In this document: positions 2-38,942 of the stretch, piece by piece
Numbering within the stretch: position 1 is the first letter of the stretch
How the letters are laid out: each line of letters starts with the position of its first letter
Assembly (NCBI GenBank): GCA_020200095.1
Contig: JAIVJJ010000010.1
Span: 1-40,579 of the forward strand
Origin: Acidobacteriota bacterium
GTDB taxonomy: Bacteria > Acidobacteriota > Blastocatellia > Pyrinomonadales > Pyrinomonadaceae
Reading direction: 5' to 3'
DNA length: 40,579 bases
Position numbers and translations under genes: made by a program
Notes under the pieces: generated by a model
Told to the model about the DNA's origin: nothing
The model's input: the letters and a program-made list of their open reading frames with translations, nothing else
The model's database searches: none

Positions 2-298
2 GCCAGCAAAAAAGCTACACAGCAACAGGCAGAAATAACCGTTACTTCTGAAGACGAAGTAATTAGAATTATTGGCACAGTAAAAAAAGTCGGCGCGAAA
101 ACTTTTTATCTGGAAAACGGCGTTTGGATTGATTCGGAGTTCAAAGAAGAAGCCAAGGTGCCGGAAACAAAACTTGTATTTGCCTCAAAAGATTTTTTTG
201 ATTTAATTGATAAGGAAAAACATTTGGCGCAGTATTTATCGCTGGGCGAAGAAGTCATCATAGTTTGGAAAGGCAAGATTTATCGAATTGTGAAATAG
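2..298 (+). CDS. C-terminal end of a probable VIT/VWA-family protein (partial)
   Basis: An open frame runs in from the left edge and stops with TAG at 296-298, leaving about 98 residues. The tail has the pattern TFYLENGVWIDSEF, then FASKDFFDLIDKE, then QYLSLGEEVIIVWKGKIYRI. From memory this matches the C-terminal region of acidobacterial proteins with vault/inter-alpha-trypsin (VIT) and von Willebrand A domains, where a short beta-rich tail follows the VWA domain. The diagnostic VIT and VWA parts lie outside the window, so the family call rests on the tail alone. The stop codon overlaps the first word of the heptameric inverted repeat that follows. Confidence 0.5.
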   Translation, partial: ASKKATQQQAEITVTSEDEVIRIIGTVKKVGAKTFYLENGVWIDSEFKEEAKVPETKLVFASKDFFDLIDKEKHLAQYLSLGEEVIIVWKGKIYRIVK

Positions 299-367
299 AT
301 GTCAGATATTAGATTGCTAGATGTTAGATAAAACCTTTTTGTTACTGACATCTGACATCTAACATCT
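297..367. repeat. Heptameric intergenic inverted repeat, site A
   Basis: Two nested perfect 11-bp inverted repeats are present: AGATGTCAGAT at 297-307 pairs with 350-360, and AGATGTTAGAT at 319-329 pairs with 357-367. The right arm is a clean 7-base tandem (three words ending in ACATC) and the left arm repeats AGAT at near-7-base spacing. It lies just downstream of the first gene and may also act as a transcription terminator, but there is no classical hairpin plus T-tract. Confidence 0.7.
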
Positions 368-10749: not shown

Positions 10750-10915
10750 ATTATGACAGATTCACTTGTTGGAGCGCGGACGAGCCATCTGCGCTTCTGG
10801 AAGTAAGATTTATCTTAACCAAAACATTTCCATTCTGCCGTTGAACCCTTTTGCATTTTCTTACTTAAAATGATTAACATATCTTTAACTTGTAGAAGTT
10901 TATATTGGAGAAAAA

Positions 10916-13562: not shown

Positions 13563-13650
13563 CGGTGAATTGTGAGCGGTGAACGGTGAGCTAAAAGCTA
13601 AATCTATTAAATTTGCTTTTAACTCACCGTTCACCGTTTATCACTCATAG
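13563..13650. repeat. Heptameric repeat and bidirectional terminator-like hairpin, site B
   Basis: Six consecutive 7-base words on the plus strand run from 13563: CGGTGAA, TTGTGAG, CGGTGAA, CGGTGAG, CTAAAAG, CTAAATC. The 22-bp arm at 13577-13598 pairs with 13615-13636 with one mismatch. The element fills the whole gap between two convergent genes and so probably ends transcription from both sides. The module CTAAAAGCTAAAT recurs exactly at site D (36281-36293). Confidence 0.85.
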
Positions 13651-17237: not shown

Positions 17238-17301
17238 CATTTATCATGTACTACTAAGTTTGATTCGATAAATGATAAATGGTAAATGTTAAATGTTATG
17301 G
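17238..17301. repeat. Heptameric repeat, site C, running into a start codon
   Basis: Five in-phase 7-base words run from 17267: GATAAAT, GATAAAT, GGTAAAT, GTTAAAT, GTTATGG, and the last contains the ATG at 17298. CATTTATCAT (17238-17247) is a perfect inverted partner of 17272-17281. There is no Shine-Dalgarno between the tract and the ATG. Confidence 0.8.
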
Positions 17302-36243: not shown

Positions 36244-36248
36244 GTTAA

Positions 36249-36361
36249 AATTCCAGATTCCAAATTCTAGATTTCAGATTCTAAAAGCTAAATTAATGAT
36301 TTCAAATTTCAGTTGAAGATTTAAATTTTTATTTGAAATCAGCGATTTGGAATCTGGAATT
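36249..36361. repeat. Heptameric repeat and bidirectional terminator-like hairpin, site D
   Basis: Six consecutive 7-base words run from 36253: CCAGATT, CCAAATT, CTAGATT, TCAGATT, CTAAAAG, CTAAATT. AATTCCAGATTCCAAAT (36249-36265) is a perfect 17-bp partner of 36345-36361, and GATTTCAAAT (36298-36307) of 36331-36340 inside it. The element fills the gap between convergent genes and its right arm touches the minus-strand stop codon. Confidence 0.85.
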
Positions 36362-37620
36362 TATTCGTAACGCAGAGATTCAATCGGGTCAAGCCGAGCG
36401 GCTTTCCACGCCGGAAATAATCCGAAAATTATTCCGATGCCAACGCTGGCGAAAAATCCGGCAATCGGCGCCCAGAGCGGAACGTATGAAGGGAAGACAA
36501 GCCTAACCAGAAAGGTTAACGCCCAACCGATTAAAAGCCCGATAAGCCCGCCGAGTCCGGTTAATGTCGCCGCTTCAATCAAAAATTGCATAAGAATATC
36601 GCTTTGCCTTGCGCCGATGGCTTTGCGTATCCCGATTTCGCGGGTTCTTTCCGTTACGGAAACGAGCATTATATTCATCACGCCGATTCCGCCAATTAAT
36701 AGACCAACCGAAGAAATAACGACCATCGCCATAAAAACCATCGCCGAAATAGAACGAAACTGTTCGATAATACTCGCGGCGGTTTCCATCGCAAAATTAT
36801 TTGGTTTTCCGTAAGGAACTTCGCGTCGCACACGCAAAAGGTCTTGCACTTCGTCTTTGGCTTCTTCAAGCTTTCCTTCTTTGGCAATGGCAAGAATAAA
36901 CAAATCGTCGGCGTAAGGTTTCAAGCGCAGCGCCGCTCCAATCGGCATATAAATGGCGTTGCTTTGGTCGTTGTTTCCGCCGCCGCCACCAAAGAGTTGT
37001 TCTTTTTTCTGCAGAACTCCGATAACGCGAAACTCACGTCCGCCAATTTCCAGTGTTTTTCCGACGGGCGATTCAAACGGGAAATAACTTTCCACGACGG
37101 TTGCGCCAATTAAGCAAACATCGGCTTTGCTGTCGCTTTCCGACTGGGTGAACCAACGCCCTTCGACAAGAATTTCGGAACCCGCTTTTTCTACGTCGGG
37201 CAGTGTTCCTTGCAGACGAACTGCCGCCGAAGTTTTGCCGTTATTTCCCGTAACCAGAATTTTCTGTCCGAAAAAATTGCTTGTAATGTTGAGAAAAGGA
37301 ACTGCCGTTTCGATAGTTGGAAGACTTTTTATAGCTTCAGCGTCTTCCATTGTCAAAGGCTTCCGCATTCTTTCTTCCTGTGTGCGTTTGCCCGTATTTA
37401 CCCCGATATTGAATTTGTATAAAAAAATGGAGCGCGTACCGAATGCTTCAACCTGCTTTTTAACGGCGGTGTCAATTCCGCTGATGATTGAAGAAATCAG
37501 CATTACAGTTATCACACCGATAATCACGCCGAAAATGGTTAAAAATGAACGCAGTTTATTGCTTCGCAAAGTTGCGAATGCCATTTTCAAATTTTCGTAA
37601 AATCCGCTACCTATATTCAT
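36361..37620 (-). CDS. MacB/FtsX-type ABC transporter permease (second copy)
   Basis: 419 residues. A first transmembrane helix follows FATLRSNKLRSFLTIFGVIIG (in part). A large periplasmic MacB-PCD domain comes next (about 50-280). Three C-terminal helices in the FtsX core include GGIGVMNIMLVSVTERTREIGIRKAIGAR (split here as GGIGVMNIMLVSV and TERTREIGIRKAIGAR) and the closing PAWKAARLDPIESLRYE. It is a stand-alone permease without a fused ATPase and is expected to work with the ATPase at 38943 and the MacA-like adaptor to move lipoproteins, peptides or antibiotics from the periplasm outward. It is the last gene of the minus-strand operon, 61 bases after its sister. Confidence 0.9.
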   Translation of the reverse strand: MNIGSGFYENLKMAFATLRSNKLRSFLTIFGVIIGVITVMLISSIISGIDTAVKKQVEAFGTRSIFLYKFNIGVNTGKRTQEERMRKPLTMEDAEAIKSLPTIETAVPFLNITSNFFGQKILVTGNNGKTSAAVRLQGTLPDVEKAGSEILVEGRWFTQSESDSKADVCLIGATVVESYFPFESPVGKTLEIGGREFRVIGVLQKKEQLFGGGGGNNDQSNAIYMPIGAALRLKPYADDLFILAIAKEGKLEEAKDEVQDLLRVRREVPYGKPNNFAMETAASIIEQFRSISAMVFMAMVVISSVGLLIGGIGVMNIMLVSVTERTREIGIRKAIGARQSDILMQFLIEAATLTGLGGLIGLLIGWALTFLVRLVFPSYVPLWAPIAGFFASVGIGIIFGLFPAWKAARLDPIESLRYE

Positions 37621-37641
37621 TTATCATTTACCATTTACTGT
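37614..37641. repeat. Heptameric repeat, site E, adjoining a start codon
   Basis: Seven-base words TATTCAT, TTATCAT, TTACCAT, TTACTGT run from 37614. On the minus strand this reads as ATGGTAA-ATGATAA immediately before and into the ATG of the permease at 37620. It closely resembles site C. Confidence 0.7.
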
Positions 37642-37681
37642 TGAACCTTTTTCAAATTTTTAATGTTCAATAATAAATGTA

Positions 37682-38917: not shown

Positions 38918-38942
38918 TTTATAAGTGAATAGTTATCAGTTG
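38918..38942. repeat. Heptameric repeat, site F, filling an operon spacer
   Basis: On the minus strand the spacer reads GACAACT, GATAACT, ATTCACT (three words sharing ACT at the same phase), followed by TATAAA and the ATG. The first word begins in the ATPase stop codon. Confidence 0.55.

Follow-up and report, generated by a model that had tools for sequence, protein, structure and literature searches.

What gives rise to short repeats that keep a period of 7 bases while their word changes from one site to the next? The question is raised by the window considered here, namely, the whole of a 40,579-nucleotide contig (C46) of the 4.32 Mb draft genome, termed G000, of an Acidobacteriota bacterium (its proteins are matched best by assemblies of Pyrinomonadaceae/Acidobacteria), in which a sequence-only reading had pointed to six intergenic sites (A to F) as likely products of one generating mechanism. 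Comparison with eight congeners (G001-G008) leads us to conclude, with somewhat more confidence than doubt, that the sites are dispersed small intergenic hairpin elements undergoing fast turnover through gain and loss of whole hairpins, 7-nt slippage and arm-to-arm copying. A single generating mechanism for the sites is plausible. The genomes compared were mainly metagenome assemblies, and genes were called with a simple codon-usage caller. The six sites are as follows:

Site A, 297..367, no strand assigned: hairpin with AGATGTC/ACATCTG-type heptamer arms in the 79-nt spacer of tandem genes.
Site B, 13563..13650, no strand assigned: inverted GGTGA-type heptamer arms with an inner AAAAGC/TAAAT layer.
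Site C, 17240..17301, no strand assigned: array GATAAAT GATAAAT GGTAAAT GTTAAAT GTTA at 17267-17298; a short inverted partner, CATTTATCATG, lies near 17240.
Site D, 36244..36360, no strand assigned: long hairpin, its heptamer arms being ATTCCAG/ATTTCAG and its inner part AAAAGCTAAAT.
Site E, 37614..37677, no strand assigned: arm CATTTAT CATTTAC CATTTAC at 37617-37638, with a partly paired second arm.
Site F, 38918..38942, no strand assigned: 25-nt operon gap, earlier proposed to be 7-periodic, a proposal unsupported here.

All six sites lie between called genes of the window, as had been read from the sequence. The convergent gap filled by site B is flanked by genes for an M16 peptidase and an S9 peptidase, and that filled by site D by genes for a Yip1-domain protein and a MacB-type permease. 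Site E lies in a 61-nt gap within an operon, between two genes for MacB-type permeases; according to Pfam, the genes of the operon around D to F encode HlyD, an ABC ATPase and two MacB/FtsX permeases. Neither Rfam families nor tRNA were found in the window.

Most of the sites had further been described as being in strict 7-base phase. When each spacer was compared with 2,000 dinucleotide shuffles of itself, this held for A to E, at which the best lag was 7, or 7 together with 14, but not for F. The lag-7 score was strongly above chance at A (14), B (13), C (21) and D (16, the same as its lag-14 score; p<0.0005 in each case) and moderately so at E (11; p=0.003, or p=0.025 if any lag of 4-12 is allowed). 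Site F was at chance (score 5; p=0.04, but p=0.31 over lags 4-12) and is not retained as a 7-periodic site. Four inverted repeats had also been announced, and these proved to be A (hairpin p=0.004; RNA fold z -3.7), B (p<0.002; MFE -43.6, fold z -9.9), D (p<0.002; MFE -37.3, fold z -6.0) and E (p=0.002; fold z -2.9). The hairpin at C is weak (p=0.012; fold z -0.2), and none was found at F by either the shuffle test or RNA folding. The 3' arm array of site A (345-367) reads CTGACAT CTGACAT CTAACAT CT, and the units of site B are GGTGAAT, TGTGAGC, GGTGAAC and GGTGAGC.

The lack of a genome-wide excess of period 7 in spacers over shuffled sequence would have refuted the sequence-only reading, which passed this test on the stretches sampled. 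In sampled stretches (149 kb of G000, 392 kb of G001 and 479 kb of G002, with less from the other genomes), lag-7 identity in spacers exceeded that in shuffles by 2.1-2.5 points, with z of 6.9, 15.8 and 14.0 in G000, G001 and G002, respectively. High-scoring lag-7 segments numbered 6 in G000, 25 in G001 and 46 in G002, as compared to expectations of 0.0, 0.4 and 0.8. Period 7, with 14 and 21, was the sole strong excess in spacers, the excess at lags 14 and 21 being a necessary consequence of that at lag 7; any other lag gave at most nine high-scoring segments. Coding DNA presented the usual period of 3 and no lag-7 excess. Most of the arrays are located in tandem gaps. As tandem 7-nt units beyond expectation and biased toward spacers, they are heptameric long simple sequence repeats in the sense of Mrazek. 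Three arrays of G000 (L147:1184-1217, L147:1498-1530 and L073:4419-4522) apparently lie within long ORFs and may be in-frame insertions.

Examination of a listing of all arrays revealed a typical order, i.e., a stop codon, an arm of 7-mers, a loop, an arm of reverse-complement 7-mers and a start codon. Usually, therefore, the unit is a hairpin whose arms both consist of heptamers, and so more than a simple tandem repeat. Indeed, a strong inverted repeat was present in 55% of 112 array-containing spacers of 30-260 nt, as compared to 12% of spacers lacking arrays and none of the shuffles, and the median RNA fold z was -4.3 in array spacers and -1.1 in the others. The element measures some 60-120 bp and usually begins at or a few bases past the stop codon and ends some 13 nt ahead of the next start. 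Hairpin ends facing a stop codon numbered 81, and 75% of these lay within 6 nt of it (52% under random placement), whereas ends facing a start codon were near it in only 22% of cases (45% under random placement). About 34 of the 81 stop-side ends fell at -3 to 0. These positions raised the possibility that the stop or start codon serves as a local template for the word, yet this is unlikely because identical words occur at many loci.

The two arms of a hairpin often mirror one another in the order of their units. An arm matched its own partner at 0.78 but the arms of other copies of the family at 0.67, and rare units are often mirrored in the opposite arm, as seen for AATTTCA (L127:782-874), AACGGAT (L106:4746-4839) and GATTTTC (L164:12491). 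Unmirrored arms also exist, e.g., at L161:12139, ruling out pure arm-copying.

The sequence-only reading had proposed a shared period with a different word at each site. The period is genuine, genome-wide in the samples and specific to spacers, and words differ between orthologous gaps as well; within a genome, however, words recur. BLAST searches with array spacers of a single genome revealed families of spacers that lie at unrelated loci and are homologous along 60-100 bp. In the best family of G001, the outer ends read TTAATGG...CCATTAA and several copies have the loop AAGAAA..TTT in common. A model of this family built from eight copies gave 144 strand-wise hits in G001, 119 in G000, 48 in G002, 33 in G006 and 9 in G008. 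Because most loci were matched on both strands, the number of loci is about half that of the hits, such that this family of about 75 bp occupies some 70 loci in G001 and some 60 in G000. Judged by eye, site B would be one of these G000 loci, alongside L260 and the AGTGGTG copies of that genome; sites C and E have a word in common, while the AGATGTC word of site A was found again in one ribosomal-operon gap of G001. The family is spelled differently by species. Its unit is AATGGTG in G001, AGTGGTG in G000 and AATGGAT or AATGGAA in its G002 relatives, the commonest unit containing AATGG at 24 of the 25 sites in G001 and AGTGG at 9 of the 10 in G000.

These families bear directly on plain replication slippage, according to which heptameric repeats are born in place, the 7 reflects the DNA polymerase footprint and the hairpins stem from chance fold-back copying. 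Heptamers were reported by Mrazek (2007), as cited in PMC4679880 and PMC4692102, to be the most abundant long simple repeats in most bacterial genomes, and it is there that 7-nt slippage is proposed as a polymerase footprint. The restriction of the arrays to spacers is also compatible with selection against frameshifts, and in G282, from another acidobacterial family, loops look mostly unrelated and are mostly site-specific. Slippage in place does not, however, account for identical words at dozens of unrelated loci or for species-specific spellings, nor for the related loops of several G001 copies. The words are, moreover, far from random choices of the same letters, given that dimers of AATTACG, AATGGTG and AATGGAT were counted 19, 13 and 6 times, respectively, and those of the reversed words not once. 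Likewise, trimers of AATTACG were present in 5 of 297 Acidobacteriota genomes (G000, two in family f32 and two in family f22) and in none of the sampled sister genera of the family, while the reversed word occurs in 0 of 297. As such, plain slippage is an unlikely explanation of the sites.

Two other kinds of dispersed sequence were seen in the spacers. One is an intergenic repeat of about 187 bp, 97% identical between L134:6358-6569 and L133:15024-15223 of G001, with shorter relatives in G000 and G002. The other is a GAGCGCG(G)AC-type motif that recurs at 10760-10800 of the window, L106:6435-6559 and L107:17007-17131, is partly fused to heptamer arms in G002 and is possibly another dispersed palindrome.

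Orthologous spacers of congeners commonly contained either a replaced word or no array at all, although the word of site C is kept in the corresponding G001 spacer (81% identity across 140 bp). In G001, the spacer orthologous to site A holds no array and that orthologous to site B holds an ordinary terminator-like hairpin without heptamers. The gap of site D contains an inverted repeat or perfect hairpin in G000 and seven congeners, mostly with different words (ATTCCAG, AAAGTCC, ATTCAGG, TGAGTCC, ATGGTGA and TCACTTC), the hairpin of G005 being ordinary, terminator-like and free of heptamers. Those of G003 and G004 look like one hairpin in which the unit was changed in both arms. Elsewhere, a single gap carries AATGGAT in G002, AATTACG in G007 and an AATGGTG-type word in G001, and another carries AATGGAT, AGATAAA or AATGGTG, depending on the species.

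The gap of site E is only 4-17 nt long in G002, G005, G006 and the relatives from other genera that were compared, and 61-130 nt long with heptamer arrays in G000, G001, G003 and G008. These states are scattered on a small tree of three neighboring proteins, implying frequent gains or losses. In G004 and G007, other genes are present at this position; by eye, small genes between the MacB-type permease genes (G004 L094:2620-3540 and G007 L095:2775-3440) resemble an antitoxin/PIN-toxin pair.

Across 28 orthologous pairs with arrays on both sides, which are not independent as several genomes share one gap, the mean distance between words was 2.61, as compared to 2.74 for non-orthologous pairs between genomes and 2.76 for letter-permuted words. 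Orthologous words being no closer than random pairs, strict inheritance of words in place is rejected. For G002 and G007, sister species whose proteins are about 80% identical (a divergence too great to fix the ends of insertions), 23 orthologous gaps were compared; arrays were present in both species in 5 cases, mostly with different words, in one species in 6 and in neither in 12. The 5 gaps with arrays in both exceed the approximately 2.6 expected under independence, and this could mean that words are rewritten in place. Besides the gap of site E, empty orthologous gaps were found opposite L106:6435 and L126:12214 in the sister G007 and opposite L137:7508 in G002.

Empty sites, together with high copy number, patchiness among congeners and inverted-repeat form, are also what would be expected of miniature transposable elements or of REP/REPIN-type palindromes moved in trans by a transposase (RAYT/Y1 in the case of REPs). 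Like REP/REPIN (PMC3116915), the elements are high-copy, small intergenic hairpins, and the common outer ends of the G001 family, its dispersal and the empty orthologous gaps are the marks of a MITE. No target-site duplication was, however, seen by eye at 40 flanked copies, the congeners being too diverged to delimit insertions. Unlike REP/REPIN, the arms here are repeat arrays of many unrelated words, and neither a tag nor a link to RAYT was found, with GTAG, CGTC and GGAG tags occurring 1, 1 and 2 times at 80 ends of one family. Y1_Tnp genes numbered 13 and 15 in two genomes of a sister genus with few arrays in the sampled stretches, whereas array-rich G282 has just 2 weak ones; across 21 genomes, such genes and arrays were not correlated, and a 7-mer array was near only 1 of 12 Y1 loci examined. 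With Y1 genes as the transposase genes examined, movement by a transposase seems improbable.

According to the dispersed-hairpin reading favored here, whole hairpins would be gained when an existing element is copied into another gap, and would later be lost. Between such events, the arms would lengthen, shorten and drift via replication slippage, one 7-mer per step, while fold-back copying between arms would maintain complementarity and carry new units into both. What persists would be the foldable, 7-phased form, rather than the sequence. The hairpins are probably tolerated in the gaps because transcription runs through them and the operon is not halted; they may also act mildly on the ends or stability of mRNA, although this is not required. 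The model by itself leaves the step size of 7 unaccounted for, and no enzyme behind the spread was found upon examination of Y1 transposase genes. Loops within families are overall only weakly more alike than shuffles and in G282 look mostly unrelated, fitting the rewriting of arms on local loops better than the copying of whole elements. A more speculative idea, which we hold to be improbable, is that a word-writing activity, acting by template-directed synthesis or by conversion from locus to locus, brings dispersed hairpins into the heptamer spelling of the species. Were this so, tens of loci and both arms would change together, including cases at one gap, and the process would amount to concerted evolution of tiny non-coding elements.

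Species-wide shifts in spelling (AATGGTG in G001, AGTGGTG in G000 and AATGGAT in G002) could also be read as the mark of a repeat-reading DNA- or RNA-binding protein, with word and protein having evolved together in each species. In Geobacter metallireducens, similar arrays carry an annotation as global-regulator sites (PMC2700814), and a translational role was proposed for those of Beggiatoaceae (PMC4679880). Yet one genome contains many unrelated words, even in neighboring gaps of one operon, and no link between word and gene is conserved between species, making binding sites a very unlikely explanation.

The ribosomal operons offer a view of such neighboring gaps. In the spc operon (secY to rplN, with genes named from their translations), hairpins occur in most gaps of both G000 (L291) and G001 (L288); of the corresponding gaps, two hold a common family in the spelling of each species, and the others hold different words. 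In G282, a ribosomal-protein cluster (L201:439-13589) has arrays in most gaps of at least 50 nt, with words other than those of the spc hairpins and with adjacent gaps differing in word. Operons of essential genes thus tolerate dense turnover of hairpins. Transcription must pass these hairpins, such that a function in termination is unlikely. Accordingly, the notion that the sites are intrinsic bidirectional terminators, with heptamers as their incidental building blocks, despite low folding energies, the convergent positions of B and D and the terminator-like orthologues in G001 (B) and G005 (D), can hardly be upheld, with arrays lying mostly in tandem gaps, including those of these ribosomal genes where termination would be harmful, and with A and T runs placed, by eye, at the loop rather than 3' of the stem.

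The comparison with the STRR heptamers of cyanobacteria, drawn by the sequence-only reading, stands as regards kind but not words. The STRR words CCCCAGT, TTGTCAG and CAACAGT gave 0 dimers in 1.02 Mb of the genus, and we know of no STRR definition that includes an inverted-arm architecture or families of copies. As in Calothrix and Nostoc, to the extent that these are cited in PMC4692102, several tandem 7-mers per genome are found between genes.

Over-representation of heptamers in bacteria has already been published (Mrazek, 2007, as cited in PMC4679880 and PMC4692102). The Xanthomonas GGGAATC repeats (PMC4692102) are likewise in heptamer phase, mainly intergenic (about 90% in Xanthomonas) and closer to the end of the upstream gene than to the downstream start. 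There, 70-75 cases per genome form convergent inverted pairs capable of a stem-loop and, as here, prominent repeats are not at the same genes in different species (PMC4692102). Xanthomonas, however, relies on one G-rich word family tied to G-quadruplexes (PMC4692102), whereas here many unrelated, mostly AT-rich words, a hairpin in most short array spacers and species spellings are seen; as an exact word, GGGAATC gave 0 dimers in 1.02 Mb of the genus. The TAACTGA repeats of Beggiatoaceae, Cyanobacteria and Bacteroidetes similarly present empty gaps in relatives, 7-nt indels between close strains and patchy occurrence in distant phyla (PMC4679880). These are direct repeats of a single favored word, with near-words being rare and one indirect repeat reported, and unlike the hairpins described here, which adjoin the stop codon, lie mainly directly upstream of start codons (PMC4679880). 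TAACTGA dimers were also absent from the 1.02 Mb. The MTYCTGA 'global regulator' sites of G. metallireducens, like the present arms, pair heptamers on opposite strands around a loop, yet comprise one word in five tandem heptamers at 16 sites (PMC2700814), rather than several families with tens of copies each. Further heptamer arrays include GGGGATT in Nostoc (PMC4692102); the Nostoc, Geobacter and H. pylori words gave no dimers in the 1.02 Mb.

Heptamer repeats, including inverted pairs in Xanthomonas and Geobacter, are therefore already known. To our knowledge, and within the open-access papers searched, four features have not been described before: many words coexist, a hairpin is the usual unit, each species has its own spelling and words are exchanged at orthologous gaps. 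The heptamer excess has been known since 2007, no mechanism having been demonstrated, and this genus offers a natural experiment. Given different words at the same gaps, empty gaps, families of tens of copies spelled by species and an spc operon rich in hairpins, both the origin of the 7-nt period and spread as opposed to growth in place can be tested by comparison of strains.

The heptamer hairpin form was found again in other Acidobacteriota, at a GC content of 52-65%. Hairpins of G282 used as queries gave dozens of matches in G282 and G266, while in seven further species of the G282 genus, the matches listed were to genes only. Words shared between genera exceeded letter-permuted controls for g1 and G313 (6 vs. 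1.5, p=0.005) and for G313 and G314 (3 vs. 0.2), although the stretches from G282, G266, G313, G314 and family f22 were among samples picked for containing a word. A universal vocabulary across lineages accordingly found modest support and is not adopted, several genomes having been picked for one shared word. In G038, a member of f22, a convergent spacer of about 570 bp (L141:1304-1896, equivalent to L170:8978-9549) reads as an onion-like palindrome of nested inverted heptamer layers, each with its own word, including GTGAACA, GAGATAG, AATTACG, CAACGAT, ACCTGGA and others.
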